From Micromonospora sp. Llam0 (GTDB taxonomy: Bacteria; Actinomycetota; Actinomycetes; Mycobacteriales; Micromonosporaceae), in contig NZ_RJJY01000002.1 of assembly GCF_003751085.1 (NCBI RefSeq), positions 806,001 through 870,000 of the forward strand: a DNA stretch of 64,000 nt. The letters are read 5' to 3'. Every line of letters starts with the position of its first letter. The first letter of the stretch is position 1. The position numbers were made by a program, and so were the translations under genes. Positions 3,430 through 63,543 of the stretch are shown piece by piece. The notes beneath the pieces are model-generated. The model was not told the origin of the DNA. It made no database searches and saw only the letters and a list, made by a program, of their open reading frames with translations.

Positions 3430-3678
3430 ATGAAGCACCCCAGTTCTCCAGCGGTCGAAGTGCCTGCGCCGGCAAACATCCCGGTCAACGGTGCCGCGAT
3501 CCGCGCTCGCCGGAAGGACATGGGCGAAACCATCACCTCGCTGGCAGCCAAGGTCCCGATGTCGTACGGGTACCTGTCGCAGCTGGAACGACGCCACCGC
3601 GTGTCGATGTCGCCACCGCTGTTCCGGCGCCTGGCCGCAGTGCTCGGCGTGGATGACCGCGAAATCAGGGCCGAATGA
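3430..3678 (+). CDS. Small XRE helix-turn-helix protein (Cro/excision-control type)
   Basis: 82 residues from ATG 3430; in-frame starts at 3394 (TTG) and 3418 (ATG) lie inside the predicted promoter, so the shorter form is preferred and would be leaderless. The HTH is clear: NGAAIRARRKDMGETITSLA, VPMSYGYLSQLERR, then a short tail ending LAAVLGVDDREIRAE. First gene of the rightward early operon and divergent from the repressor, so a Cro-like antagonist is the best guess; a recombination directionality role cannot be excluded. Its stop overlaps the next start (ATGA). Confidence 0.75.
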   Translation: MKHPSSPAVEVPAPANIPVNGAAIRARRKDMGETITSLAAKVPMSYGYLSQLERRHRVSMSPPLFRRLAAVLGVDDREIRAE

Positions 3679-4414: not shown

Positions 4415-5682
4415 CGCCTGACATCTGCGGCGCGGCCGCAGCCCACACCGTGATCGTCACCACCGCCGACGACACTGGACACCCCACGCCCGTCCGGCCC
4501 GGCGTGATCCGGACCGGCGCGTACGCCGGCTCGATCCACGCCTGCGACGTCCACCGCGACCAGGTCGCCGCCGACCTGCGCGGCTCCGGACTCGTGGTCG
4601 ACGTGATCACGTCGACCACTCCGCCGGGCACGTGGTGCGGTGACGTCTGGCGGATCGCCGCCGACGGCGTGCTCACCCCCGACAGCGGGCCGGAGCACCA
4701 GGCGCTGCAGCGGGCGGCGGCCGCCACCGCTCCGGCACCGGCGGGCCCGGTCGACGACCCGACCCCCGCCCCGGCCGTTGACGTCGCGGTCGACGTCGTC
4801 CAGCGGTGCGGCCGGCCGGCGGTGGCCGGTGTGGCGACGCAGCCACACCCGATGCGCTGGACCGGCCCACGGACGTACGCGGGCACCATCTGGGTTTGCA
4901 CCGGGCACGAGGACGTGGTGACGGAACAGGCCCGGACCGGCGGGCTGGACACCGGGCTGGTCGGCGCTCCGGAGCGGGTGCGGTGCGGCGAGATCTCCGC
5001 CGAGGGCGTTGACCTGGCCGACGTGCCGGCCGGTGCGTGGCCGCGCCTGGCGGTGCTCGCGGCTGCGAACGTCACCGCCGCCGCCCCCGTCCCGATGCCG
5101 GTGCCGGACGGCGAGTTGTGGGCGCGCGCGGACGAGCTCCGTCCGGGGATGTGGATCGCGACCGGCCGGCCGGATGTGCCCGGTGTCGAGGTCCGCGCCG
5201 TCGAGATCGGAGACACCGGCCTGGTCGGCGTGCTCTGCAGCGGCCCGGAGTACGCCGAGTACGTCGCCGACCAGCCGGTGCGCCTGGTCGACGAGGCGAC
5301 CGTGGCCGAGGCGGCGGAGGCGTTGCGGGTGCGGACCCGCCGTCAGCTGATGCTGGACGGCCTGCGTGCGCTGGTCGCGGCCGCCGAGCGGGACATCGAC
5401 ATCTTGCCGGTGGATCGGCTGCAGGTGACCGGCCGAGCCGCTGACCTGCCCACCCTGCACCAGTTCGCAGCCGCGCTCGGTGCCGACGTCGTGCAGGTCG
5501 GTGAGCGTCTCGTCGCTGAGGTGCTGACCGGCGGTGGTCCGGCCGATGACCTCGGCGGGTCGTCCGCGCCGATCAGCGTCGAGATGTACGTCTACGCCGA
5601 CCCCGAACCGGCCGGCTCGCCGCCTGCGCGGGGAACCGCCGCCGTGGTGGTGCCGGCACAGCCGACCGGGGGTGACCTGTGA
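4366..5682 (+). CDS. Unknown early phage protein with a duplicated Cys/His module
   Basis: 438 residues from GTG 4366, preceded by GAGAGAGG at 4353-4360; the frame stays open further upstream but without a ribosome-binding site. Two related modules occur, about residues 15-100 and 140-215. Each contains a Cys, a P(x)nYAG(S/T)I segment, a Cys followed by a His two residues later, a GL segment and a later CG. The spacing suggests a metal-binding fold. The remainder is acidic and partly helical (EAAEALRVRTRRQLMLDGL). No known family recognised. Coupled by a 4-base overlap to the IS-interrupted gene downstream. Confidence 0.7.
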   Translation: MEHQQPTQAEPGSVPVTPDICGAAAAHTVIVTTADDTGHPTPVRPGVIRTGAYAGSIHACDVHRDQVAADLRGSGLVVDVITSTTPPGTWCGDVWRIAADGVLTPDSGPEHQALQRAAAATAPAPAGPVDDPTPAPAVDVAVDVVQRCGRPAVAGVATQPHPMRWTGPRTYAGTIWVCTGHEDVVTEQARTGGLDTGLVGAPERVRCGEISAEGVDLADVPAGAWPRLAVLAAANVTAAAPVPMPVPDGELWARADELRPGMWIATGRPDVPGVEVRAVEIGDTGLVGVLCSGPEYAEYVADQPVRLVDEATVAEAAEALRVRTRRQLMLDGLRALVAAAERDIDILPVDRLQVTGRAADLPTLHQFAAALGADVVQVGERLVAEVLTGGGPADDLGGSSAPISVEMYVYADPEPAGSPPARGTAAVVVPAQPTGGDL

Positions 5683-6069
5683 CCGCCAAGCCGATCGGAC
5701 CGTACGCGACGGAGGATGAGGCGTTGGCCGCGCCGCTGCCCCGGCAGCTGGCCGAGCTGCACGCCACCGGACGTGTCCGCCCGGGTGACGGCGTGGCCTC
5801 CGGAACGCGCCGGGCTGCGCTGATCGCCGCCGCCGTCGATGCCGGTGTCGAGCTGGGCGACCTGGACCACCGGGTGCTGGCATGGCTGGCCGACTGGGAG
5901 ACCGCGACCGTCCAGGTCGTGATCGGCCTGATCACGCGGGCGTACGCCGCCGGCCGGGCCGCCGGCCCGGCACCGCTGGCGCAGGACCCGCCACCCGCCC
6001 CGGCCACCCCGGCACCGGTCCAGCCGGCCGACATCACCGCCGCGCTGCTAGGGCGTGTATCAAAGTCGG

Positions 6070-6543
6070 TCACAGCCACTCGTTGATCGCCGCGACCTGC
6101 ACGGTCGCCTCGTACCGGACCGCGAGCTTGTCGTAGCGGGTCGCGACGGCACGGTTGCGCTTGAGCCGGTTGATCCCGCACTCGACCGCGTGGCGCTGCT
6201 TGTAGATCTCGGGGTCGAAGGCCGGCGGCCTGCCGCCCTTCGACCCCTTCTTCCGCCGGTTGGCGTCCTGGTCGGCCTTCGACGGGATCGTCGCGGCGAC
6301 ACCCCGTCGACGCAGGTAGGCACGGTTCGCCTTCGACGTGTACGCCTTGTCCGCCAGCACCCGGTCCGGACGGGTCCGGGGCCGACCGGCCCCGACCCGG
6401 GGCACCCGCACACCGTCGAGGACCGTCGTGAACTGCGGGCTGTCGCCACGCTGCCCGCCGGTCAGCACGATCGACAGCGGTTTCTGTCCCTGTTCACAGC
6501 CCAGGTGCAGTTTCGTGGTCCGTCCGCCACGGGAACGCCCCAA
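6070..6543 (-). CDS. IS5-family transposase, C-terminal frame (orfB), copy 1
   Basis: 157 residues as an independent frame; more likely made as the -1 frameshift extension of orfA. It carries the second catalytic Asp (LADKAYTS) and the Glu ([12 protein letters not shown]), plus [13 protein letters not shown], which normally lies in the middle of IS5-type transposases. Read through the shift near 6597-6605, the peptide continues [20 protein letters not shown] into this frame, matching uninterrupted IS5-family enzymes. Confidence 0.9.
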
Positions 6544-6962
6544 CGCGTGGTCGTCGGGTTCCGACCCGGTACCGCCGGGTGGTTCGGCCTGCAGATCCCC
6601 CTTTTACGCGCTCCGGCGGCGTGCTGGTGCGCTCGGCTGATCGTGGAGTCCACGGACACGTCCCAGACGATCCGTCCCGCCGCGTCGGCCAGGGCCTGCA
6701 ACGCGGTCAGGATCCTGGCCCAGGTCCCGTCGCGCTGCCACCGGCGGAACAGGGCGTACGCCGCCGCCCAGGAGCCGTAGTGGTCGGGGATGTCCCGCCA
6801 CGGGGCGCCGGCCCGTGTGCGCCACCGGATCGCGTCGATGAGCTGCCGTTTCGTTGATGCGGGCGGTCGGCCCGGTCGGCGTGCGGTGGGCAGGAGAGGC
6901 TCCAGGACTGCCCACTGCGCGTCCGTCAGGTCGTGCCGCCTCGTCACCGCTACGCTGGTCAC
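6462..6962 (-). CDS. IS5-family transposase, N-terminal frame (orfA), copy 1
   Basis: 166 residues. Begins with the DUF4096-type helical DNA-binding region ([16 protein letters not shown]), followed by GAPWRDIP and the first catalytic Asp in [15 protein letters not shown]. The frame leaves family-like sequence after ARKRG. A run of four A and five G (minus strand, 6597-6605) lies there; a -1 slip gives the expected continuation in orfB. GTG start at 6962, close to the right inverted repeat. Confidence 0.9.
6597..6605 (-). promoter_or_regulatory. Predicted -1 frameshift site, IS transposase copy 1
   Basis: Minus-strand AAAAGGGGG. The zero frame reads AAA AGG GGG ATC; slipping back one base gives GAT CTG CAG, restoring the conserved transposase sequence. 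The same site is at 59554-59562 in copy 2. Confidence 0.75.
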
Positions 6963-15031: not shown

Positions 15032-15514
15032 ATGGCGGTCGCGGGCCGGAAACCGAAGGCGGATCGTAGTCAGGTGCGCCACCGCGTACCGGCGGTGCAT
15101 GACTGGGTGGAGGTGCCGAACCTCCCCTTCGATGGTGACCGTCCGTCGCTGCCGGTGCGGATGGTGCGGGTCCAGGTCGACGACAAGCCGCCGGCGTGGG
15201 AGACGCGGCGCGGGTCGTGGCCGGCCGCGACCCGGCGGTGGTGGGAGACGGTGTCGACGATGCCGCACTGCCGGTTGTGGACGTCGTCGGACTGGCAGTA
15301 CGCGCTTGACACGGCCGAGGTCCACGCCCGGTTCGCTGAAGGGGCGACCGGGGCGACGGAGGTGCGGATCCGGGAGAAGGCGCTCGGCACGACCGTCGAC
15401 GCCCGCCGGGATCTGCGGATCCGGTACGTCGACCCGCCGCCGGAGGTGCCGCAGCCGGCGGTGGACGCCGGCGTGGTGCAGCTCGACACCTATCGTGACC
15501 TCTACGGAGGCTGA
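15032..15514 (+). CDS. Terminase small subunit
   Basis: 160 residues from ATG 15032; a perfect AGGAGG at 15018-15023 with 8-base spacing decides this start over GTG 15023. MAVAGRKPKADRSQVRHR then HDWVEVPNLPF is the usual opening of actinophage small terminases, followed by W(P/E)...RRWWETV and a helical end. It recognises phage DNA for packaging and recruits TerL. Its end overlaps the TerL start by 20 bases. Confidence 0.85.
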   Translation: MAVAGRKPKADRSQVRHRVPAVHDWVEVPNLPFDGDRPSLPVRMVRVQVDDKPPAWETRRGSWPAATRRWWETVSTMPHCRLWTSSDWQYALDTAEVHARFAEGATGATEVRIREKALGTTVDARRDLRIRYVDPPPEVPQPAVDAGVVQLDTYRDLYGG

Positions 15515-17267
15515 TCCGGAGCTACTGCCCGGCTACTACCTGGACAGGTGGAACGGGACTGGCGCCTGGTGCACGTTGCCGTGGCCACGGGATCTCACGG
15601 ATCTGCCGCCGAGTCTCGGCCCGCAGATCATCGCGTGGGCGGAGTGGCGCGACTACGACCGGACCGGTGAGCCGGGGCTGATCGACTACCAGACCGGCGA
15701 GGAGTGGCGGTTCACTCCGGGGCAGCGGCGGTTTCTGCATCTGTGGTACGCGTACGACCCGCGTACGGGCCGGTGGATCTGGCGGCGTGGGGTGAAGAGA
15801 GGCGCCAAGGGAACCGGTAAGGACCCGATGGGCGCGGCGATGTGTGACATCGAGCTGATCGGGCCGTGTCACCTGGTGCGCCGAGACGGCCGCTGGGCCG
15901 GCGAGCGGCACCGGATGCCGCTGGTGCAGATCGGCGCGAACTCCGAGGCCCAAGCCAAGGACGTCTTACGGGTGGCGAACGCGATGCTGTCGCGGGAGAC
16001 CCGCGAGTTCTACAGCGTCGACTGTGGCGAGACCCGGACGATCCTGACGGACGGCGGCGGCCGCCTGGAGGTGCTGACCGCGTCCGAGCAGTCAACCGAG
16101 GGCGACCCGGCCACGTTCATCTGGTTGAACGAGACGCACCACATGACCGAGTCGAACGGCGGCCACCGTACGGCGAAGGTGGCCCGCCGGAACGTGGGGA
16201 AGAGTCCCGCCAGTATCCAGGCCCGGGTGTGTGACGGGACCAACGCGCACGAGCAGGGGTCGGACTCGATCGGTGAGCGCGCGTACGAGGCGTGGCAGAA
16301 ACAGGTGTCGGGCCAGTATCCGAACCTGCGGCAGGACATCCTGTACGACTCGATCGAGGCTCCGCCGGATCTCGACTTGTTCGACGACGCGCAGCGGATG
16401 GCTGGGCTACGGGCCGCGTACATGGACGCGCCGTGGGCCGACTTGCAGCGTCTCGACGGTGAGGTTCTGGACCCGGAGACGCCGATGTCGGACAGCATCC
16501 GCTACTACTTCAACGGGTTGGGCACCCGTGAGGACGCGTGGATCGATCCGCGCAAGTTCGATGACCTGGCCCGGCCGGGGACGGTCGTCGCCGACGGCGA
16601 CCAGATCGCCATGTTCCTGGACTGCAGCAAGTCGTCGGACGCCACGGCGTTGGTGGGCTGCCGGATCTCGGACGGGCACGTGTTCGTCCTCGGTGTGTGG
16701 CAGCGGCCGCACGGTGCCCGGGGCAAGACGTGGTTGGCGCCGCGTGAGCTGGTCGACGCGACGGTCCGCGCGGCGTGGGACCGGTACCGGGTGGTGTGGT
16801 TCGGCGTCGATCCCGGGCCCGGCCGTGATGACGACGACGAGTCGCTGTACTGGATGGCGTTGATCGACGGCTGGCACCGCGACTTCCACCGGCGGCTGCG
16901 GGTGTGGGCTACCAGCGGCGCGAGGACCGGAACCGGCAACAGTGTGCTGTTCGACATGCGGATCAAGACGCCGGGCGGGGTCCGCCGGAACCAGGAGTTC
17001 ACGCTGGCCGCGATGCAGTGCGCCGAGGACATCGACGAGAACGGCACGCTGACGCACGACGGGAACGCGGTGCTGCGGATGCACACCCACAACGCCAGAC
17101 GTCGCCCCAACCTGTGGGGCGAGTCGCTCGGCAAGATCAACCGGGCGTCGACGAAGCATGTGGACTGTGCGGTCAGCATGGTCGGGGCCCGGATGGGGCG
17201 GAGGCTGGCGCTCAACAGCGGCAAGGTGCGCGTGCGACGCGCGGGGGCGGGGAAGGCGGTGTTCTGA
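15495..17267 (+). CDS. Terminase large subunit
   Basis: 590 residues from GTG 15495, chosen because the frame further upstream is shadow of the small subunit. The packaging ATPase has a Walker-A-like KRGAKGTGKD, a Walker-B-like TFIWLNETHHM, and a coupling-type segment. The C-terminal nuclease shows acidic positions in IAMFLDCSKSSDATALVG, VVWFGVDPG and KHVDCAVSMVGA. It moves DNA into proheads and cuts it. Length and domain order are normal. Confidence 0.9.
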   Translation: MTSTEADPELLPGYYLDRWNGTGAWCTLPWPRDLTDLPPSLGPQIIAWAEWRDYDRTGEPGLIDYQTGEEWRFTPGQRRFLHLWYAYDPRTGRWIWRRGVKRGAKGTGKDPMGAAMCDIELIGPCHLVRRDGRWAGERHRMPLVQIGANSEAQAKDVLRVANAMLSRETREFYSVDCGETRTILTDGGGRLEVLTASEQSTEGDPATFIWLNETHHMTESNGGHRTAKVARRNVGKSPASIQARVCDGTNAHEQGSDSIGERAYEAWQKQVSGQYPNLRQDILYDSIEAPPDLDLFDDAQRMAGLRAAYMDAPWADLQRLDGEVLDPETPMSDSIRYYFNGLGTREDAWIDPRKFDDLARPGTVVADGDQIAMFLDCSKSSDATALVGCRISDGHVFVLGVWQRPHGARGKTWLAPRELVDATVRAAWDRYRVVWFGVDPGPGRDDDDESLYWMALIDGWHRDFHRRLRVWATSGARTGTGNSVLFDMRIKTPGGVRRNQEFTLAAMQCAEDIDENGTLTHDGNAVLRMHTHNARRRPNLWGESLGKINRASTKHVDCAVSMVGARMGRRLALNSGKVRVRRAGAGKAVF

Positions 17268-18677
17268 TTGGCGTTGACGGCTGAGGCTGCCGCGACCCGG
17301 GCGGGTGAGCTGCGGCGCACGCACGAGTCGGAGCGGGCCGAGCTGGACGTGCTGCGCCGCTACTGGACGGGCAAGCAGCGGCTGCCGGCGGTGATCCCGT
17401 CCGACGCGCCGCGTGAGGTGCGGGAGATGGCCCGGATCTCCCGGGTGAACGTGATCGACATCGTGGTCAACTCGCTGACGCAGGCGTTGTTCGTCGACGG
17501 GCTGCGGGCTCGTGATCCGCAGTCCGGCGATGATGTGACGCTGCCGGTGTGGTCGGCGTGGTTGGCGAACCGGATGAACAAGCATCAGGCCGGTCTGCAC
17601 CGGGCGACGGTGGCGTATGGCACGGGATACCTGGTGATCACCCCCGGTGATCCGTATCCGGTGATGCGGCCGCGGTCTCCCCGGCAGGTGACGGCGATGT
17701 ACGGCGAGGATCCGGACTGGGCGGAGATCGCGCTGGAGAAGCTGCCGGTGCCGGGCCGGTGGCGGCTCTACGACGACACCACGGCGTGGCCCGTGACCGA
17801 GCAGGGCGGCCGGATGGCCGTGACCGGTGCGGAGCCGCACGGGTTCGACCGGGTGCCGGTGGTGCGCTACCGCGACGCGGAGGACCTGGACGCCGACGAC
17901 GACGCCGAGCCGGAGCTGCTCTCCGGCGGGTTGAGTGCGCAGTGCCGGGTGGTGGTCGGGCAGGTCGCGCCGCTGATGCCGATGCAGGACCAGATCGACC
18001 TCACCAGCTTCAGCCTCAAGGGCGCGGAGTGGTACAGCGCGTTCCGGCAGCGGTGGGCGATCGGGTGGACGCCGGAGGACACCAGCGCGAAGATGCGGTC
18101 CGCCGCGTCGCAGTTCTGGACGTTCGAGCAGATGCCCGACGAGATGCAGCTCGGCGAGTTCTCCCAGACGGAGCTGAGCGGCTATCTGGCGTCGCGGGAG
18201 TCGACGTCGAAGTTCGTGGCGACGCTGTCGCAGACGCCGGTGCATGAGCTGATCGGCGAGCTGGTCAACCTCAGCGCCGAGGCTCTGGCGGCGGCCGAGG
18301 CCGGCCGGGACCGCAAGGTCGACGAGCGTAAGACCGGCATGGGCGAAAGCCACGAGCAGTCGTTCCAGGTCGTCGGCGCGTTGATGGGTGTGCCGGTGCC
18401 CGACGACGCCGAGGTGGTGTGGCGGGACACGTCGGCGGCCGCGTTCGCGGCGGTCGTCGACGGGCTGGGCAAGTTGGCGCAGATGCTCGGCGTCCCCGCG
18501 CAGGAGCTGTGGGATCGCATCCCGGGTGTCACCCAGCAGGACATCCGCCGGTTCAAGGCGGCCGCCGCCCAAGGTGATGCGCTGGCCAACCTGACGTCGC
18601 TGCTGGACCGGCAGGCCACCGGCCCCGACGACGGGGACCCGGACGATCCGGGTGGCGCTGGTGGCGCTGACGGTTGA
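17268..18677 (+). CDS. Portal protein (SPP1 Gp6-like)
   Basis: 469 residues. Starts directly after the terminase stop with TTG 17268. ARISRVNVIDIVVNSLTQAL, GLHRATVAYGTGYLVITPG, DQIDLTSFSLKGAEWYSAF and LASRESTSKFVATLSQTPVH are in the order seen in SPP1-type portals. Twelve copies would form the DNA channel of the head and dock the terminase. Overlaps the following MuF-like gene by 26 bases. Confidence 0.9.
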   Translation: MALTAEAAATRAGELRRTHESERAELDVLRRYWTGKQRLPAVIPSDAPREVREMARISRVNVIDIVVNSLTQALFVDGLRARDPQSGDDVTLPVWSAWLANRMNKHQAGLHRATVAYGTGYLVITPGDPYPVMRPRSPRQVTAMYGEDPDWAEIALEKLPVPGRWRLYDDTTAWPVTEQGGRMAVTGAEPHGFDRVPVVRYRDAEDLDADDDAEPELLSGGLSAQCRVVVGQVAPLMPMQDQIDLTSFSLKGAEWYSAFRQRWAIGWTPEDTSAKMRSAASQFWTFEQMPDEMQLGEFSQTELSGYLASRESTSKFVATLSQTPVHELIGELVNLSAEALAAAEAGRDRKVDERKTGMGESHEQSFQVVGALMGVPVPDDAEVVWRDTSAAAFAAVVDGLGKLAQMLGVPAQELWDRIPGVTQQDIRRFKAAAAQGDALANLTSLLDRQATGPDDGDPDDPGGAGGADG

Positions 18678-20110: not shown

Positions 20111-20992
20111 GTGGCTGTGCTGACCGCGCAAGGCATCTCGTCGCTCGCGATCGAGCTGCTGACGCGCACCCTCGTTCTGCCGATGACGGCGTCGCGGATC
20201 CCGGGCGCGGAGTTCAGCGGGTCGAACGGGGACACGATCACGGTGCGGGTGCCGCAGCCGTCGACGGCGCGGACCCAGTCGTCGCCGGGTGCGACGATCA
20301 CCTATGACGACGTCGACGAGGTGCCGGTCGACGTGTCCCTGTCGCACCTGTACCACGCCAAGCTGGTCTCGGATCAGGAGCTGAGCCTGGACCTGGCCGA
20401 CTTCGGGCGGCAGATCACCCGGGTGCAGGTGGCGGCGGTGGCCACCGGCGCCGAGAACCAGATGGCGACGGTCATGAACGGCCTGCCGGCCGATCTGACG
20501 ATCGACGCCGACGGCGGCAACATCGACGCGATCGTGCTGCAGGCCCGGGAGATGCTCGGCCGGGCGGAGGCGCCGCTGGACGGCCGGTACCTGGCCGTGT
20601 CGCCGGAGGTCGCCACGTTCATCCTGGCGCTGGACGAGGTGTCGCGGGTCGACGCGTCGGGCGACACCAACGCGCTGCGGAACGCGATCATCGCCCGCTG
20701 GCGCGGGTTCAACGTGGTCGAGTCGACCGGGCTGGACGCGGGCAAGGCGGCCGCGTACCACCGGTCCGGGTTCGCGTTCGCGAACCGGGTGCCGGTGGTG
20801 CCCCGGGGTGTGACCAGCTCGGCGACCGCGCAGTCCGGCGGGGTCGGGATGCGGCAGATCTTCCAGTACGTGCCCGACAAGCTCAGCGATGCCAGCGTGA
20901 TCTCGACGTTCGCCGGCGCGGCGGTCGTGACGGACGCCGAGTCCGGGGAGACCACGCCCCGGGTCGTCGTGATGGACACCGCCGAGTCCTGA
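20111..20992 (+). CDS. Major capsid protein (HK97 fold, P22-coat-like group)
   Basis: 293 residues from GTG 20111 with AAAGGAG seven bases upstream, the best ribosome-binding site in the head module. MAVLTAQGISSLAIELLTRT, GDTITVRVPQPSTARTQ, SHLYHAKLVSDQELSLDLAD and LDGRYLAVSPEVATFILAL follow the order of actinophage capsid proteins without a protease domain. Forms the icosahedral shell on the scaffold. Confidence 0.9.
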   Translation: MAVLTAQGISSLAIELLTRTLVLPMTASRIPGAEFSGSNGDTITVRVPQPSTARTQSSPGATITYDDVDEVPVDVSLSHLYHAKLVSDQELSLDLADFGRQITRVQVAAVATGAENQMATVMNGLPADLTIDADGGNIDAIVLQAREMLGRAEAPLDGRYLAVSPEVATFILALDEVSRVDASGDTNALRNAIIARWRGFNVVESTGLDAGKAAAYHRSGFAFANRVPVVPRGVTSSATAQSGGVGMRQIFQYVPDKLSDASVISTFAGAAVVTDAESGETTPRVVVMDTAES

Positions 20993-31987: not shown

Positions 31988-32875
31988 ATGCGACTGCTCT
32001 GGCTGCCCGAGGTGCTGCGCAGTGCCGGGCTGACCGTCCGCGAGGTCGACGGCTGGCGCGATCGCGGCTCATCCAGCTGGGGGCCTATCCGGGGCGTCAT
32101 CTGCCACGCCACCGCCGGCGGCACCGGGGCCCGCGCCGAGGACGAGGTCCGGGTTCTACTCAACGGCTCAGCGACAGCGCCGCCGCCGATCGCGCAGACC
32201 TACCTGGCCCGCGACGGCGTGTGGTGGGTGGTCGCCTCCGGCCGCTGCAACCACGCGCTTACCGGCTGGGCAGGGCCGTGCAAGGGCCTCGGCAACGCCG
32301 AGCTGTTCGGGGTGGAGGCGGGGAACAACAACCGTGGCGAGCCCTGGCCGCAGGTGCAGCTGGACAGCTACCAGCGGGGGGTGGCCGCGATCTCCGGCCG
32401 CCTGCAGGTGGCGGCGCGGATGGTGGCGGCACACCGCGAGCACCAGCCGTGGCCGCCGCCTAAAGGGCAGACGTCCACAAAGTCGGACCCTCACGGGATC
32501 GACATGACCCAGTTCAGGGCGCGGGTTGACGCGCTGCAGAGAAGGGACGCGACCATGGCCATTAGCAAAGACGACGTGCGGGAGATCGCGGTCGCCGTCA
32601 ACGGCTGGATCTACCCGAAGAATGGCCCGGCGTTGCACACAGCTGCGCGCAACGCCGCTGCCGACGCCGCCAGGGCAGTCGGTGACATCGCCGCGCTGCG
32701 GGCCGAACTGCGGACCGCAGTCGGCCGGGACTGGGTCGACGAGGACGCGATCGTGTCCGGCGTGCTGACCGGGCTCGGCGCCCGGCCGCCGGAGGAAGCG
32801 GCGACCGCCCTGGTCGCGGTCCTCGGCGAGGAACGCGCCGCCGCGCTCGGCCGGGCCCTGCTCGCCACCAACTGA
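31988..32875 (+). CDS. Endolysin, N-acetylmuramoyl-L-alanine amidase
   Basis: 295 residues. Amidase_2/PGRP fold with zinc ligands: His in GVICHATAGG, His in CNHALTGW and the HREHQPW and KSDPHGIDM segments. It cuts the bond between muramic acid and the stem peptide. After residue about 180 comes a helical C-terminal part (KDDVREIAVAVNGWIYPKNG ...) typical of actinophage lysins and probably binding the wall or helping oligomerise. No signal peptide, so export depends on holin. Confidence 0.9.
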   Translation: MRLLWLPEVLRSAGLTVREVDGWRDRGSSSWGPIRGVICHATAGGTGARAEDEVRVLLNGSATAPPPIAQTYLARDGVWWVVASGRCNHALTGWAGPCKGLGNAELFGVEAGNNNRGEPWPQVQLDSYQRGVAAISGRLQVAARMVAAHREHQPWPPPKGQTSTKSDPHGIDMTQFRARVDALQRRDATMAISKDDVREIAVAVNGWIYPKNGPALHTAARNAAADAARAVGDIAALRAELRTAVGRDWVDEDAIVSGVLTGLGARPPEEAATALVAVLGEERAAALGRALLATN

Positions 32876-33391: not shown

Positions 33392-33658
33392 GTGCCCACC
33401 GCAGTTACCACCCAGTCCCGCCACCCGTGGCGGGCCACCCTCCGGACCGCCGTCGCCGCGACGATCGCCGCGCTGCCGCTGATCCCGCTCGCCGCGAGCG
33501 AGGCCGGGATCGACACCGTGCCGGCAGTCGCCGGCGTCGTCGCGGTCACCGGCGCCATCACCCGGGTCATGGCCATCCCTGGCGTCGACGCCTGGCTCCG
33601 CGCGTACGCGCCGTGGCTGGCGTCCGCACCCCGACACGAGGTCCCGCCTGGACGCTGA
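33392..33658 (+). CDS. Holin
   Basis: 88 residues from GTG 33392 with AGAGAGGAGA upstream. HPWRATLRTAVAATIAALPL, VPAVAGVVAVTGAITRVMAI and PGVDAWLRAYAPWLA give two membrane helices, basic N-terminus and the WR...RT / ITRVMA(I/L)PGV pattern of actinophage holins. It times lysis by making membrane holes for the amidase. Last gene of the late operon. Confidence 0.85.
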   Translation: MPTAVTTQSRHPWRATLRTAVAATIAALPLIPLAASEAGIDTVPAVAGVVAVTGAITRVMAIPGVDAWLRAYAPWLASAPRHEVPPGR

Positions 33659-33671
33659 CCCCGCACGCAGC

Positions 33672-33705
33672 AGCGGCCCCGCACCGAGTCCGGTGCGGGG
33701 CCGCT
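33672..33705. terminator. Strong bidirectional terminator
   Basis: Perfect 15-bp stem (AGCGGCCCCGCACCG and its complement) with a four-base loop, lying between the convergent holin and lipoprotein genes. The rightward side ends in CTTCACTGTGT, without a long T-run. Ends the late transcript. Confidence 0.85.
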
Positions 33706-33726
33706 TCACTGTGTCTCTGTCTCTGC

Positions 33727-34152
33727 TCAGAAGTCGGGACAGATGAACTGCCGCACCACAGCCAGGATCTGGGTGGCGGTCTCCTCCCCGAACCCGTCCG
33801 GATACCCCGGCGCCGAGAACCGCAAGTTCGTGAGCTGGACGAGCTTTGCCTCGTCTGCCTCGCCGTTGCCGATCGACTGGCACTGGCTCCGGCCACGGTC
33901 GACGATCGTCTTCTCGTCCTTGTCGCCGACGATGTCCGGGTTGATGTCCATCAGAGCGCTGATGTAGGCAGCCCAATCCTCGGGCGATGGGGTTGGCGGG
34001 ATACCGGCGGCCGCAGCGGCGGAGGCAAGGCTGTCGTCGGCCGTTGCCGACGTCGGCGCCGGCGTGGCCGCGTCCTCATCAGAGCCGGCACCGCAGCCCA
34101 GAGCGGTGACCGCCGCGATCGCGATGGCCGCTATCAGCATCTTGTTACGCAC
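33727..34152 (-). CDS. DUF732-like lipoprotein, probable lysogenic-conversion gene
   Basis: 141 residues from GTG 34152 with GAGGAG six bases upstream; the long upstream extension is shadow. A signal peptide with lipobox (AIAAVTALGCGAGSDED) leads to a mature part with ADDSLASAAAAAGIPPTPSP, SQCQSIGNGEADEAKLVQLT and AVVRQFICPDF: two Cys and the layout of DUF732 proteins common in actinobacteria and their prophages. It is transcribed against the late genes from the lysogeny arm, so it could be made in the lysogen, on the outer face of the membrane, perhaps blocking superinfection. Role inferred. Confidence 0.75.
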   Translation of the reverse strand: MRNKMLIAAIAIAAVTALGCGAGSDEDAATPAPTSATADDSLASAAAAAGIPPTPSPEDWAAYISALMDINPDIVGDKDEKTIVDRGRSQCQSIGNGEADEAKLVQLTNLRFSAPGYPDGFGEETATQILAVVRQFICPDF

Positions 34153-34289
34153 GTCGTCTCCTCGGTCTCGTGGGGGTAGGCCCGCTGTAGCCGGCCGGGG
34201 CGGGGCCGTCGGGGTACGGGCGGGCGCGATCACGGTGCCAGCGGCGGCCGCAGCACGCCATCGGACCGTCGGGCAGGCGACACCCACCG

Positions 34290-34553
34290 TTACGGGGATG
34301 AGACGCGGGTACATCGCCAAGGCCGGGACCGCAGCGTCGTCCACAGCACCCGCTGCCAGTTGAACAGTGGGTGCTGGCGTATATCGGCGTCGAGGAGCGC
34401 GTCTCGGCGGTCGGCGCGCCACTGCACAGCGCGGATCAGGTCGGGGCATCCGCCGGGCTGGCAGGCCGGGCAGCGTGGCCAGACCGGTGGCGGCGGTCCG
34501 TGGTGGATGGCGAGGATCCTTGCCGCCCTGGCGTCGTCCATCGGACCGGTCAT
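34290..34553 (-). CDS. Small Cys-containing phage protein, rightmost of a four-gene set
   Basis: 87 residues from ATG 34553 (ATG 34541 also possible). MTGPMDDARAARILAIHHG, PRCPACQPGGCPDL and RQHPLFNWQRVLW. Three Cys in a CxxC...C arrangement suggest zinc. Overlaps the end of the upstream gene (ATGA). Last gene of the leftward operon from 35189. Confidence 0.6.
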   Translation of the reverse strand: MTGPMDDARAARILAIHHGPPPPVWPRCPACQPGGCPDLIRAVQWRADRRDALLDADIRQHPLFNWQRVLWTTLRSRPWRCTRVSSP

Positions 34554-34741
34554 ATCGAGCGACGCACCAGGCGCCATCGGGATACGGCCCGGCGGGTGCG
34601 GGCCCACGCGAGCTGCGGGCAGGCGTCGGTGCCGGGGCATTCGAGGTGGCACCGGCACCCGGCGGCGTGTGCGTGCACGGCGCTGGCGGCCGCGTCGTCG
34701 CGGTCCTGGTCGGTGATCGGTCCGTCGTCCATCGCGGTCAC
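34550..34741 (-). CDS. Small Cys-containing phage protein
   Basis: 63 residues from GTG 34741. DGPITDQDRDDAAASAVHAH followed by a Cys/His-rich AAGCRCHLECPGTDACPQLA and a basic end. Four Cys and the His could hold one metal. Coupled by GTGA and ATGA overlaps to genes on both sides. Confidence 0.6.
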   Translation of the reverse strand: MTAMDDGPITDQDRDDAAASAVHAHAAGCRCHLECPGTDACPQLAWARTRRAVSRWRLVRRSI

Positions 34742-35019
34742 GGGGCGACTCCCGCTGAGATCCACGTCCAGGCCACGAACCGTTCGTACAGTTCGGCGGG
34801 GTCGGTGATACCGGCCTCGCCGGCCGCGACGGTCAGCATTTCGCCGACGTCGACCGACAACGCGATCGGCTCGCCGGCGTACGCCTCTGCTAGCTGGGTG
34901 CGTGCGGGTGGGCAGGGCCATGGGGTGTCGGGCGCGCAGACCGCGCACGTCCACGACGGGCGGTGCGGGGTGTGCGCCGGCTCTGCGGCCGGGCCGGCCG
35001 GGCTGGGCGTGCCGGTCAC
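34738..35019 (-). CDS. Small phage protein with CxxC, unknown
   Basis: 93 residues from GTG 35019. SWTCAVCAPDTPWPC early, then an acidic helical half (LAEAYAGEPIALSVDVGEML ... ITDPAELYERFVAWTWISAG). The second half looks like a well-folded helical domain, but I do not recognise it. Overlaps on both sides. Confidence 0.6.
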   Translation of the reverse strand: MTGTPSPAGPAAEPAHTPHRPSWTCAVCAPDTPWPCPPARTQLAEAYAGEPIALSVDVGEMLTVAAGEAGITDPAELYERFVAWTWISAGVAP

Positions 35020-35189
35020 GGCAGGATGGTGCGGCCGCCGTTGCCGCCGCGCTGGTCGCCGCGGTCGGTGCGGGTCGCTGGCCGGGTGTCGGTCGGCCGG
35101 GCGGGCTGGTCGGCGTACCGGCGGCGGCCGGGCACCGGACGGACGACGTCGACCACGGCATCGACGCGGAGGAACCACTTCCCGATCAT
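35016..35189 (-). CDS. Small basic phage protein, first gene of the leftward operon
   Basis: 57 residues from ATG 35189, with GAGGAG eight bases upstream, which supports this start. MIGKWFLRVDAVVDVVRPVP then a basic, Arg/Thr/Asp-rich tail (TDTRPATRTDRGDQRGGNGG). No known family. It faces the GntR gene and its palindromic operator, so the operon 35189-34290 is probably controlled by that repressor. Confidence 0.55.
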   Translation of the reverse strand: MIGKWFLRVDAVVDVVRPVPGRRRYADQPARPTDTRPATRTDRGDQRGGNGGRTILP

Positions 35190-35318
35190 CTTCGCGCTCC
35201 TCGAGTCAGCGGGGGCGGCGGCCCGGCGAGCACGGGGGAACCCGGCCGGACCGCCGCCGATCCGGGGTGGCCCGGCCCCGCGGATCCGCGCGCTGGATGC
35301 CGATCAGGACCGGGCCGG

Positions 35319-35342
35319 CCATCTTTGCGTACGCAAAGATGG
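35319..35342. promoter_or_regulatory. 24-bp perfect palindrome, GntR operator candidate O1
   Basis: Core TTTGCGTACGCAAA inside a 24-bp perfect palindrome. It lies in the divergent region between the GntR gene (right) and the small leftward operon (left). Palindromes of this length and spacing are typical of GntR dimers. A related site lies at 35380-35390. Confidence 0.8.
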
Positions 35343-35379
35343 ACTGAGTGTGACCGCAGTAACGACGCGACGTCAAGGC

Positions 35380-35397
35380 TTTGCGTACGCCTAAACT
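35380..35397 (+). promoter_or_regulatory. GntR operator candidate O2 and -10 box
   Basis: TTTGCGTACGC repeats the left arm and centre of O1, directly followed by TAAACT (35392-35397). With ATG at 35404 only six bases further, the GntR message would be leaderless and its promoter covered by the operator, suggesting autorepression. Confidence 0.65.
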
Positions 35398-35403
35398 GGG
35401 CGC

Positions 35404-36165
35404 ATGGCGGGCTATCGGGAGATCGCAGCGGACCTCCGCGAGGCGATCGCGAGGGGTGACCACCCACCCGGCAGCCGCATCCCCACGGAACACGAACTGG
35501 CCGAGTCGTACGGCGTGAGCCGCGAGACCGTCCGTCGCGCCCTGGCCGAGCTGCGTGCAGCCGGGGTGCTGGAGTCGGCTCGGGCCGCCGGCACGCGCGT
35601 CGCCACACCACCCGTCCGGCTGGCGCTCACCCGGTACGCGGCGGTGACCGATCCGGGCCGGACCCGGGCGCACCTGGGCCCGTGGGAGACGGCCTGTGCC
35701 GATCAGGGCGTCACCGGATCGGTGGAGTTGGTGGCGGTCGAGTCCGTGCCGGCGCCGGCGCAGGTGGCCGCGCGGCTCGAGGTGCCGGCCGGTACGTCGA
35801 TGGTGCTCCGCCGCCGGCGGCATCTGGCGGACGGCCACGTGGTCCAGGTACACGAGTCGTGGATGCCGTCGACTCTGGTCGCCGGGACGGTGCTGGCAGA
35901 GCCAGGGAAGGTCGTTGGCGGTGTGTACGCGGCGATGATGGCTGCTGGCGTGCGCCCGGCGACCGCGAGCGAGGAGCTGTCGGCCAGGCCCGCGTCGGAG
36001 GCTGAACGGACCGCGCTCGGCCTGGTGGCGGTCGGCTGGGTCCTGGAGCTGTGGCGCACGACGCGTGACGTCACCGGCCAGGCGGTGGAAGCGTTGCAGG
36101 TGGTATCGGACGCTCGACGGGTGCGGTATGAGTACGGCGATCTGCCGATCAGGACTGGGAGGTGA
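35404..36165 (+). CDS. GntR-family (HutC-type) transcriptional regulator
   Basis: 253 residues. Winged helix about residues 1-70: YREIAADLREAIARGDHPPG, SRIPTEHELAESYGVSRETV, RRALAELRAAGVLESARAAG. UTRA effector domain about 95-245: VPAGTSMVLRRRRHLADGHV, VHESWMPSTLVAG and a TALGLVAVGWVLELWRTTRD stretch. GntR/HutC repressors are common in actinomycete mobile elements. It probably controls itself and the leftward small-gene operon through O1 and O2; the effector is unknown. Ends in a four-base overlap with the next gene. Confidence 0.9.
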   Translation: MAGYREIAADLREAIARGDHPPGSRIPTEHELAESYGVSRETVRRALAELRAAGVLESARAAGTRVATPPVRLALTRYAAVTDPGRTRAHLGPWETACADQGVTGSVELVAVESVPAPAQVAARLEVPAGTSMVLRRRRHLADGHVVQVHESWMPSTLVAGTVLAEPGKVVGGVYAAMMAAGVRPATASEELSARPASEAERTALGLVAVGWVLELWRTTRDVTGQAVEALQVVSDARRVRYEYGDLPIRTGR

Positions 36166-36515
36166 GCAGAGTGGATCGTGACGCCATTGTGGCGGTCCTG
36201 GCGGAGGCCTCGGCCGCCGTCGACGACGCTGACGCGAGGATGCTGGCGGCCGAGGCGCTGGCCGCCGTCATGTCCCACCCAGGGCTGCGGTACGCGGCCG
36301 TCAACCAGCCGGCCACCAGGTGGGTGGTGGCGTGCGACGGCGTACTGCTCGGGTACCTGTGGTCGGGGCCGGGGCGGCTGCTCGGCGGGTGGACAGCCGC
36401 ACGGCTGGACAAGCTGGGCGAATCAGACCGGCTCGGCCCGTTCCACACCGGCCGGGCCGCCGCAGCAGCGCTCGCCCGGCACTGCGGGGCAAATCCTCGC
36501 CATGTGCTGGCCTGA
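36162..36515 (+). CDS. Small hypothetical protein downstream of GntR
   Basis: 117 residues (GTG 36162 or GTG 36171). DRDAIVAVLAEASAAVDDAD, RMLAAEALAAVMSHPGLRY, WVVACDGVLLGYLWSGPG. The middle beta-hairpin and following helices recall small UTRA-linked or immunity-type proteins, but no family is assigned. Coupled to the regulator by a GTGA overlap. Confidence 0.55.
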   Translation: MSRVDRDAIVAVLAEASAAVDDADARMLAAEALAAVMSHPGLRYAAVNQPATRWVVACDGVLLGYLWSGPGRLLGGWTAARLDKLGESDRLGPFHTGRAAAAALARHCGANPRHVLA

Positions 36516-36586
36516 CCGGGCGTCATCTGCGCAATCGGGCACGTCAAGTCTTGATCTTCGCCTGCCCCGTCGATCAACCTCCCGTG

Positions 36587-36931
36587 ATGGGGGACGAACA
36601 GCAGCTGAGGGCCGTCATCTACGTACGCTCTGGTGACGACGCTCTCGAGTGGCAGCGGATCTGTGTTGATCATGCAGAGGAGTCCGAGTACCGCGTCATC
36701 AGTCTCGTGGTCGACGATGGCGCTACAGGGTGGCCCGACGTCGTCCGCATGCTCGCTGCGGGGGAGGCCGATGTCGTCGTGCTGGCGGACTGGCGTCATC
36801 TGTCGCCGGACCGGGTGCCGAGGGTGGAGGTCGCCGAGTTGCCGGACCGGCCGGCTCCGTCTCACCGGCATCCGCGCGGACTGCGCTGGCCAGGTGCAGG
36901 CGTGGGGTCTGCATCAGCAGACCCCACGTGA
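36587..36931 (+). CDS. Resolvase-domain protein near attR
   Basis: 114 residues from ATG 36587. RAVIYVRSGDDALEWQRICV, YRVISLVVDDGATG and AGEADVVVLADWRHLSPDRV give the core of a serine-recombinase catalytic domain: the YxRxS-like strand (YVRS), the D.g.sg motif and the (D)v.v..ldRlsR-like strand where Asp-Trp-Arg-His replaces the usual DRL.R. The DNA-binding C-terminal domains are missing. Could be a decayed recombinase, or a small protein acting with the integrase, for example as directionality factor. A hairpin covers its 3-prime end. Confidence 0.65.
   Translation: MGDEQQLRAVIYVRSGDDALEWQRICVDHAEESEYRVISLVVDDGATGWPDVVRMLAAGEADVVVLADWRHLSPDRVPRVEVAELPDRPAPSHRHPRGLRWPGAGVGSASADPT
36901..36928 (+). 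terminator. Hairpin at the end of the resolvase-domain gene
   Basis: Perfect 12-bp stem CGTGGGGTCTGC with loop ATCA, ending just before the TGA stop. No T-run; a run of nine G follows at 36961-36969. Likely transcript end, since the next gene is convergent. Confidence 0.65.
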
Positions 36932-37019
36932 CCGACAGTGATCCAAAGTTGACTTCGAGCGGGGGGGGGCTTCGTTGATGGGTTTTCAAGCCCCTGGACC
37001 CAGTCCCGTCCCTCCCGGG

Positions 37020-37370
37020 TCAGACGGGCCGGACCGCTCTATGGCTCGGCTTCGGCAGTTCTCGCCGGACGCCCTGCATGTAACCCTCCACATAGCCCTC
37101 GTGGTAGGAGGCATCCTGGACGCGCCGCTCGATGCGGTCCATGCGCCGGTGTAGCGACGACTCACCGAGCCGGACTGCGTAGACGGTCCACGCCACAACC
37201 GCTCCGGCGATGAGGACATCGCGGGCCGCGAGTCCGAGCACGGTGGCCCCGACGGCCAGCACCGTGACGGCGGTGGCGATGACCAGGATGACGGTGAGCA
37301 GGGTGGCGGCGGGCCGCCGGTATGACGTGCTGTTCGGCCCATCGTCGTCGACGAGCTGTAGTCGTGCCAT
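37020..37370 (-). CDS. Small membrane protein at the right prophage end
   Basis: 116 residues from ATG 37370 with GAGGAGG about 12 bases upstream; GTG 37442 gives 140 residues. Two adjacent membrane helices (TLLTVILVIATAVTVLAVGA, LAARDVLIAGAVVAWTVYAV) and a charged C-terminal helix (SSLHRRMDRIERRVQDASYH, EGYVEGYMQGVRREL). The layout recalls phage membrane immunity or exclusion proteins, but there is no family match. Confidence 0.6.
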   Translation of the reverse strand: MARLQLVDDDGPNSTSYRRPAATLLTVILVIATAVTVLAVGATVLGLAARDVLIAGAVVAWTVYAVRLGESSLHRRMDRIERRVQDASYHEGYVEGYMQGVRRELPKPSHRAVRPV

Positions 37371-37614
37371 GGTGGGGCGATCCTCCTCGGGAGGGATGGG
37401 GATCTGGTCTCCAGCGACATCCCCCGTCGTCGCTAGATCCACTTAGACACGGAGATGTTACGGGCCGTTACCGGGGAGTTGATCCACCGTCCGGGCGACG
37501 TCCACCGGCATGGGTGGGAGTACCGCGAAGGGCTACCACCTGGGACATCATCCGCATGGCCGGCGCCGTCTACCTTGATCAGCGTCGAGGTCCAACCGAA
37601 CGGGCAGTGTCTGT

Positions 37615-37650
37615 TCTACATCTGACATGACGGGCTCCATGTTGCCGCCG
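37615..37650. other. attR, right prophage junction in alaX
   Basis: Phage arm CTGACATGA (37622-37630), shared core CGGGC (37631-37635), then host alaX (TCCATGTTGCCGCCGG). See attL. Between the small membrane gene and attR (37443-37621) no convincing gene is seen. Confidence 0.9.
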
Positions 37651-38027
37651 GTCACCAGGGCACCGAAGTCGCGGAACACCACGCCGCAGAGCACGTGCAG
37701 CCCGGAGTGGGTACGCATCAGCAGGCTGCGGCGGGTGTCCTCGACCGCGCCGGTGACCTCGGCGCCGACCGGCGGCAGCGGGTCATCGTCGGCGGGGATC
37801 AGGTAGAGGTCGTCGCCCTTGCGGGTGCCGACGATCCGGGTCTGCGCCCCCTGCCAGAGCAGTACGCCGTGGTCCGGCGGCTGGCCGCCGCCGCCCGGGT
37901 AGAAGGCGGAGCGGTCCAGCACGATGCCCTGCTCGGCGTCGGCGTGCAGCACAGTGCACTGCCACTCACGCAGGGTCGGGTCGCGCAGGTCGAGTCGGTC
38001 GGTACGACCGTGACTGGTGACACCCAC
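37632..38027 (-). pseudogene. alaX: alaX, N-terminal half (cut by the prophage at attR)
   Basis: Codes for the first 132 residues of the alanyl-tRNA editing protein: LDRSAFYPGGGGQPPDHGVL, then RTHSGLHVLCGVVF (the HxxxH metal site) and ALVTGGNMEP at the break. After the junction the frame runs through 27 phage-derived codons to a stop at 37548. Start GTG 38027. The partner half is at 1066-1411. Without the C-terminal DGGTH motif no active editing enzyme is expected while the prophage is in place. Confidence 0.9.
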
Positions 38028-59026: not shown

Positions 59027-59500
59027 TCACAGCCACTCGTTGATCGCCGCGACCTGCACGGTCGCCTCGTACCGGACCGCGAGCTTGTCGTAGCGGGTCG
59101 CGACGGCACGGTTGCGCTTGAGCCGGTTGATCCCGCACTCGACCGCGTGGCGCTGCTTGTAGATCTCGGGGTCGAAGGCCGGCGGCCTGCCGCCCTTCGA
59201 CCCCTTCTTCCGCCGGTTGGCGTCCTGGTCGGCCTTCGACGGGATCGTCGCGGCGACACCCCGTCGACGCAGGTAGGCACGGTTCGCCTTCGACGTGTAC
59301 GCCTTGTCCGCCAGCACCCGGTCCGGACGGGTCCGGGGCCGACCGGCCCCGACCCGGGGCACCCGCACACCGTCGAGGACCGTCGTGAACTGCGGGCTGT
59401 CGCCACGCTGCCCGCCGGTCAGCACGATCGACAGCGGTTTCTGTCCCTGTTCACAGCCCAGGTGCAGTTTCGTGGTCCGTCCGCCACGGGAACGCCCCAA
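59027..59500 (-). CDS. IS5-family transposase, C-terminal frame (orfB), copy 2
   Basis: Identical in translation to the frame at 6070-6543: catalytic Asp in LADKAYTS and Glu in [12 protein letters not shown]. Expected to be reached through a -1 shift from orfA. Confidence 0.9.
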
Positions 59501-63495: not shown

Positions 63496-63543
63496 AGAGG
63501 CGGCCCGGGGAACTCCGAATTCGGAGTTCCCCGGGCCGCCTCT
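63496..63543. terminator. 48-bp perfect palindrome between pstB and pstA
   Basis: Two 24-bp arms (right arm starts TTCGGAGTTCCCCGGGCCGC) with no unpaired centre. Lies between convergent genes; a bidirectional terminator. Confidence 0.85.

Follow-up and report, generated by a model that had tools for sequence, protein, structure and literature searches.

A GntR-UTRA cassette in a Micromonospora prophage and its possible link to host XRE-type regulators

In a 64,000-nt stretch of the Micromonospora sp. Llam0 genome (hereafter the window), we studied positions 34290–36165, where a prophage gene for a GntR-UTRA (HutC-type) regulator, gntR, stands divergent from four small minus-strand genes, sm1 to sm4; coordinates are window positions unless given for another locus. 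We tentatively read this locus, with confidence a little short of even, as a cassette that is likely released by a ligand and makes small proteins that would bind or tune host XRE-type regulators. For the predicted autorepressing switch, the argument draws on domain content and conserved sites; for the likely action on host regulators, it draws only on gene neighbourhood.

A conserved pair of sites around gntR

The 253-aa product of gntR (35404–36165, plus strand) matches PF00392 (7.8e-19) and PF07702 (3.2e-21), both over the curated Pfam cut-offs, and combines the N-terminal GntR winged helix and C-terminal UTRA domain of the HutC (UTRA) subfamily. A preliminary description of this DNA had called it a GntR regulator and had pointed to a 24-bp perfect palindrome on its small-gene side and a second site on its −10 box; all three were recovered. 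The palindrome CCATCTTTGCGTACGCAAAGATGG lies at 35319–35342 and encloses the predicted operon operator core, the 14-bp TTTGCGTACGCAAA (35324–35337). The second, imperfect and probably autoregulatory site, TTTGCGTACGCCTA (35380–35393), overlaps the predicted gntR −10, TAAACT (35392–35397, plus strand), from which a leaderless transcript is predicted; TAAACT, TAGACT or CATACT stands in the same place at six other loci. The predicted promoter of the small-gene operon consists of TTGACG (−35, 35371–35376) and CACACT (−10, 35347–35352) on the minus strand. We infer promoters, DNA binding and repression from the positions of these elements.

Palindrome length alone is weak evidence, because a first-order Markov simulation of the window, run 40 times, reached 24 bp once and the window also holds two longer perfect palindromes, of 48 bp (63496–63543) and 26 bp (4594–4619). 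The outer bases that complete the 24 bp are unique to the window copy, and 16 bp are common to the related genomes G003 and G005. It is the conservation of the sites that points to a two-site arrangement rather than a chance palindrome. Close gntR orthologues were compared at seven non-identical loci, namely the prophages of the window genome (G000) and of G003, the chromosomes of G005 and G006, two IMG/VR contigs (2772190715_000002 and 2751185841_000001) and G026; the cassette of the first contig recurs with the same protein sequences in G206, adjoining phage genes (by eye), and was counted once. The five other GntR proteins aligned with that of the window (G026 not being in the alignment) are 53–81% identical to it, and the recognition segment VSRETVRRAL is invariant in all six. 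The core TTTGCGTACGCAAA is exact in all five loci that have gntR beside a divergent small operon (the two related prophages of G000 and G003, the chromosomal G005 locus and the two IMG/VR contigs). CACACT is likewise kept in all five, 9–14 nt ahead of the core, and four of them (G000, G003 and both IMG/VR contigs) share the complete series TTGACG-N17/18-CACACT-N9..14-operator on the operon strand. Beside the gntR −10, GCGTACGC is kept in six of the seven loci. The divergent operon is absent from the remaining two: G006 has only the gntR-proximal site, with relics of sm1 and of XRE-TPR sequence close by, and at G026 the palindrome is a variant form, GTTTGCATATGCAAAC, and no small gene was recognised.

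Of 300 family genomes, three contain CTTTGCGTACGCAAAG (G000, G003 and G005), always beside a gntR orthologue; the same pattern read backwards was found once each in two other genomes. A scan of viral contigs for CACACTN{5,30}TTTGCGTACGCAAA, which may leave out records near the window's own genome, returned two stretches, both of them GntR cassettes and corresponding to the two IMG/VR contigs. Neither TTTGCGTACGC nor GCGTACGCAAA was found in the 3.7 kb read at the GntR matches of five further genomes out of 354 (E 1e-43 to 1e-41), nor in the 3.7 kb read at the second GntR match in the own genome. Fifty-three INPHARED phage records have a GntR match, all below 60% identity, and none of the INPHARED records has an sm2 match at 0.01. 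Micromonospora phage pMLP1, read over 7.4 kb at its GntR genes, showed no GCGTACGC and, by eye, no sm2, and neither did the IMG/VR contigs L175 and L176, whose GntR protein is 38% identical to that of L171; a scan of a genome collection by GntR peptides gave one relative, 31% identical. In L175 and L176, both metagenomic viral contigs, the GntR gene is followed by an XRE-DUF5753-like frame (4992–6715 in these contigs, by eye).

The predicted switch architecture is well supported by conservation, as its sites are kept across three phage lineages and at one chromosomal locus. The preliminary description had taken the locus for a self-contained, ligand-controlled cargo module, and this agrees with sites found again, base for base, in distant phage contigs and with a cassette that lies in a prophage, ligand control being probable. 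In the mechanism we propose, the GntR-UTRA protein would repress its own gene and the divergent four-gene operon from two copies of the conserved site. Bound to the operator, it would block the start region of the operon, because 9 bp separate the predicted −10 from the core downstream of it; at the second site, which covers the gntR −10, it would repress itself. A ligand would release GntR from both sites, as the UTRA domain suggests; sugars and amino sugars are among the known ligands of UTRA proteins. The lysogen would then make the small proteins, which would likely bind or tune host XRE-type regulators. The locus would thus be a lysogenic-conversion cassette, in which small partners of host regulators, parted from their XRE gene, have come under a phage-borne switch.

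Alternatively, GntR could govern induction or maintenance of the phage itself, with the small genes as early phage functions. The cassette does have a prophage setting, close to the endolysin gene, and further phage contigs also contain GntR cassettes. However, three of the five matches to TTTGCGTACGC in the own genome lie at the cassette and two outside the window, a small helix-turn-helix (HTH) frame close to the integrase gene (3520–3678) is another repressor candidate, and in G005 the unit of gntR, operator and small genes is chromosomal, and the 19 kb read around it showed no phage genes by eye. We therefore regard a life-cycle role as quite unlikely; of the prophage control that had been suggested for this locus, the prophage setting stands, and the mostly local distribution of the site and the chromosomal copy weaken the rest.

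Small genes, their chromosomal relatives and XRE neighbours

The operon begins with sm1 (35016–35189; 57 aa, MIGKWF...RGGNGGR) and continues with sm2 (34738–35019; 93 aa), sm3 (34550–34741; 63 aa) and sm4 (34290–34553; 87 aa), each gene running 4 bp into the next. With 0, 3, 4 and 4 cysteines, respectively, the products match the earlier account of four coupled genes for proteins of 57–93 residues, three of them with Cys clusters. sm2 represents a W-x-C-x2-C-x7-C family with a PWPC motif. sm3 has homologues in the G003 prophage (81%) and in five copies at lpdA loci. The one sm4 homologue that the comparison of loci gave (78%) is likewise in the G003 prophage, where the whole four-gene set recurs.

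The frames themselves are conserved in relatives. Between the window and the G003 prophage, the ratio of nonsynonymous to synonymous substitution rates (dN/dS) is 0.30 for sm2, 0.37 for sm3, 0.21 for sm4 and 0.18 for gntR, and these four genes are under purifying selection. The ratio of 1.16 for sm1 is uninformative because it comes from only 10 substitutions (dS 0.055); in the sm1 protein, 27 of 57 columns are invariant across the 19 of 30 loci that were aligned, 11 having been left out, one of them (L127) for a stop inside sm1.

No Pfam domain above cut-off and no NCBIfam toxin or antitoxin family was found for sm1–sm4; the single weak Pfam match was that of sm4 to a capsid family (0.098, below cut-off). 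No PADLOC family matched sm1–sm4 at 0.01, and the gntR product gave only weak HTH matches there (best 0.00089). An AlphaFold2 model of sm2 has three helices (predicted local distance difference test, pLDDT, 74; predicted template modelling score, pTM, 0.36), and its two structure matches in the PDB, at E 6.6, are meaningless.

These results bear on two further explanations. Cargo genes typically lie near a phage end, and the position of the cassette near such an end would suit a superinfection-exclusion or anti-phage function, which had been raised as a possibility for this DNA. The PADLOC result speaks against it, as do the many sm2 relatives (up to 26 matches in a single genome), which often adjoin regulators, and we consider phage defence highly improbable. 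Slightly less so, though still very doubtful, is a kil-kor or toxin-antitoxin-like unit with one small protein that is harmful when derepressed and silenced by GntR. In its favour, attempts to delete korSA and its homologue SCO3932 failed (PMC8584621), and XRE-DUF397 pairs have been proposed as type II systems (PMC10364602); yet sm1–sm4 belong to no Pfam or NCBIfam toxin or antitoxin family, and sm1-sm2-sm3 persist without gntR in four genomes.

The relatives of sm1 and sm2 point to host regulators instead. sm1 is present in all seven genomes of the genus, and a database search returned 16 proteins whose named organisms are all Solwaraspora or Micromonospora. The 44 sm1 rows were reduced to 30 loci: ten rows came from a single region of the G003 prophage, present on several contigs or contig ends, and were taken as one locus, and five others, weak or partial, were not fetched. 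These 30 loci, read in the seven genomes, comprise 2 prophages and 28 chromosomal loci, and 23 of the latter have the order sm1-sm2-XRE-TPR. The other five lie between lpdA-like and ATP-grasp genes and read sm1-sm2-sm3, with no XRE-TPR gene downstream; one of them (G005) has gntR and the operator. Single defects occur, with a broken XRE-TPR frame in L119 and a shortened sm2 in L121. The sm1-sm2 family is chiefly chromosomal, and its prophage version stands without an adjoining XRE gene, whether through loss or from the outset.

sm2 is more widespread, with 17 matches in the own genome at E 0.01; counting all seven members of the genus, 71 of 121 family genomes have at least one match at E ≤1e-8. 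This host has five sm2-linked XRE-TPR proteins, and some sm2 relatives carry the source name “flavin reductase”. Among the 23 best-scoring sm2 loci fetched from outside the genus, DUF397 matches lie within ~1.5 kb at ten and XRE-TPR-like matches at eight, one locus having both (17 in total), and six have neither within this distance. None of 19 window segments of similar size contained an XRE-TPR or DUF397 match. The “unknown task” of the preliminary description can therefore be narrowed, as relatives of both sm1 and sm2 adjoin XRE regulator genes.

In a midpoint-rooted tree of 28 sm1-sm2 pairs (two of the 30 were too short), the two prophage copies group together (98/94), as do four copies from lpdA loci (90/80), and all six form one group (99/96); the remaining lpdA-locus copy, that of G002, branches separately. 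We had considered a recent capture from the lpdA locus of this host and rejected it: the prophage pair stands beside, not inside, the four-copy group, and the G002 copy lies apart. From this placement, any transfer would be old and could have gone either way.

The XRE-TPR protein of L019 is predicted to combine an HTH with a TPR-like superhelix (pLDDT 86.7, pTM 0.76), in which it resembles the RRNPP regulators PlcR, Rap and AimR, all present among its PDB matches. Unrelated TPR proteins score as high or higher, and sm1 has no evident signal sequence (by eye); the fold match being unspecific, a role as peptide receptor is only a possibility. In L138 (G050), a TPR gene, a 56-aa gene, sm2 and a lipoprotein gene like that of the IMG/VR contigs lie together (by eye), possibly a prophage with an XRE-TPR gene in place of gntR.

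A leader with two predicted hairpins

Upstream of sm1, two hairpins can form in all 30 loci, hairpin 1 at 35269–35316 and hairpin 2 at 35214–35258 (minus strand). Against dinucleotide shuffles, hairpin 1 has a mean z of −2.63 and is below −1 in 29 of 30 loci (exception L020, +1.0; window copy −1.66), and hairpin 2 has a mean z of −4.12 and is below −1 in 30 of 30 (window copy −4.31). The whole leader of the window copy reaches a z of only −0.86, with 19 of 100 shuffles equally low. A third, Shine-Dalgarno-sequestering hairpin, attractive by eye, was discarded (mean z −0.34, only 8 of 30 below −1).

In hairpin 2, 99.3% of 406 cells are compatible with pairing vs 39–62% in slid controls. Six of its 14 pairs are invariant, six show one-sided change, one shows two-sided change and one departs only by an unpaired cell. 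Its count of pairs with two-sided change is no better than in shuffles (453 of 500 as high); its covariation score beats them (0 of 500 as high) in a comparison that ignores relatedness. A leader model searched against the seven genomes at E 0.01 recovered its 30 source loci and three more, located at a partial sm1, at an sm1 relic, and directly before an XRE-TPR gene in G003. In the last case (L121 3263–3396, G003:C9:4984262), neither sm1 nor sm2 stands between the two-hairpin leader and the XRE-TPR gene. The leader travels with sm1, and the operator with gntR. Rfam gave no match at E up to 5 in positions 33600–37600 and none at gathering scores in five related loci; unmatched in Rfam, the leader is a candidate cis-regulatory RNA.

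The stem-loops might also act as DNA, their inverted repeats being the operator of XRE-TPR proteins and the prophage operon a further target of host regulators. Both hairpins are long inverted repeats, and the G003 leader directly before an XRE-TPR gene would fit such an operator. On the other hand, hairpin 1 is built by several different sequences at one place (by eye), although z is weak for some of these copies (L020, +1.0; L116, −1.1; L124, −1.33), and the pairing of hairpin 2 survives one-sided and two-sided changes. We rate a DNA operator as unlikely.

Weighing the reading, the prophage and known systems

Several observations weigh against the reading of a GntR switch placed over partners of host regulators. 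The core TTTGCGTACGCAAA departs from the usual HutC operator form GTMTAKAC, as AC directly follows GT; the spacing is 0 here vs 4 nt in most HutC sites, with exceptions (PMC4494728); this concerns the operator and not family membership. In G005, only CACACT and the operator are kept, the −35 is not recognisable, and GCGTACGC is degenerate. The lpdA loci of G000, G001, G002 and G003 have sm1-sm2-sm3 without gntR, and no site within 3 mismatches of the operator was found there; these three genes can therefore live without GntR. The prophage copy has no adjoining XRE gene, and in two of the three phage lineages (IMG/VR 2772190715 and 2751185841) no sm1 was seen by eye. Both of these contigs have ~20 nt between operator and first start codon, hence no room for such a leader, and none was seen by eye. 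Finally, the neighbour control was drawn from one window only, and gene neighbourhood does not prove partnership.

The left half of the window is largely prophage, with PHROGs matches and genes for a serine integrase (1446–2885), terminase (15495–17267), portal (17268–18677), major head protein (20117–20992) and, near 31988–32875, an endolysin. Similarity to the G003 prophage stops at 36497 and similarity to host DNA of other genomes begins at 37631, which places the cassette at the right end of the prophage. The host similarity starts within a short alanyl-tRNA-editing-like frame (37548–37952, by eye), and this gene may therefore be the insertion site of the prophage. Named protein relatives of the window genome come from Solwaraspora and Micromonospora. 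Beside sm4 lies a lipoprotein-like gene (33730–34155), 94% identical in the G003 prophage, with matches to phrog_12816 (function unknown) and, below cut-off, to the Pfam family DUF732. A 117-aa gene of unknown function (36162–36515, plus strand) overlaps the gntR stop; its counterpart after gntR in the G003 prophage is 73% identical, and no match to it was found in the G005 and G006 loci. Two 132-aa transposase-like frames (IS5-type by eye), one in the prophage (6070–6468) and one on the host chromosome (59027–59425), are identical across the 130 residues printed. Eight short G003 contigs of 14.6–32.3 kb (C2–C8 and C10; L053, L058–L064) carry the right end of the prophage; in seven, this is followed by ~0.5–5 kb of right host flank and then the left part of the phage, with slightly differing junctions. 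Their appearance is that of phage-plus-host DNA that was packaged or circularised (lateral-transduction-like), or else of assembly chimeras.

By analogy, the closest studied counterpart would be KorSA/SCO3932. SCO3932, KorSA-like and from actinobacterial integrative and conjugative elements (AICE), has two sites in the divergent intergenic region, one of them over the start site of the divergent gene (PMC8584621). As predicted here, a GntR protein on a mobile element has its own promoter bound in this region; the divergent gene there is pra, whereas here phage genes and small Cys-rich genes are found. None of the AICE genes pra, tra and repSA was seen by eye in the gene lists, a family-model search aimed at them not having been made. 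The WhiJ-BldB/AbaA and XRE-DUF397 (Scr1-Scr2) systems of actinomycetes (PMC10294661, PMC10364602) likewise comprise many paralogous small proteins whose genes adjoin those of XRE regulators, and the DUF397 matches near sm2 loci add to this likeness. They differ in that neither a DUF397 nor an XRE domain occurs in sm1–sm4, gntR or the 117-aa gene and that the prophage copy lacks an XRE gene. P22 Pid (PMC3573128) is a small protein from a phage cargo locus that alters a host operon, as sm1 or sm2 would under our reading. According to the abstract, its expression belongs to the carrier state of the phage, and the abstract names no dedicated GntR switch; the likeness drawn here is one of proposed function. 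Among the titles and abstracts listed from one open-licence collection, we found no paper that names the GntR-small-gene cassette or the sm2 family, and nothing on a Solwaraspora prophage.

In a wider and speculative version, to which we give a low probability, actinomycete phages would carry a ligand-sensing switch with which orphan host-type partner proteins, behind a two-hairpin leader RNA, reset paralogous developmental or metabolic XRE-TPR regulators that resemble RRNPP proteins. Actinomycetes commonly encode large sets of small proteins next to XRE regulators, most of them of unclear role; BldB itself is called “enigmatic” (PMC10294661). Having placed relatives of two of these behind a switch of its own, probably controlled by a ligand, the phage would offer an inducible handle on them, and the cassette suggests that temperate phages reach into host regulation.

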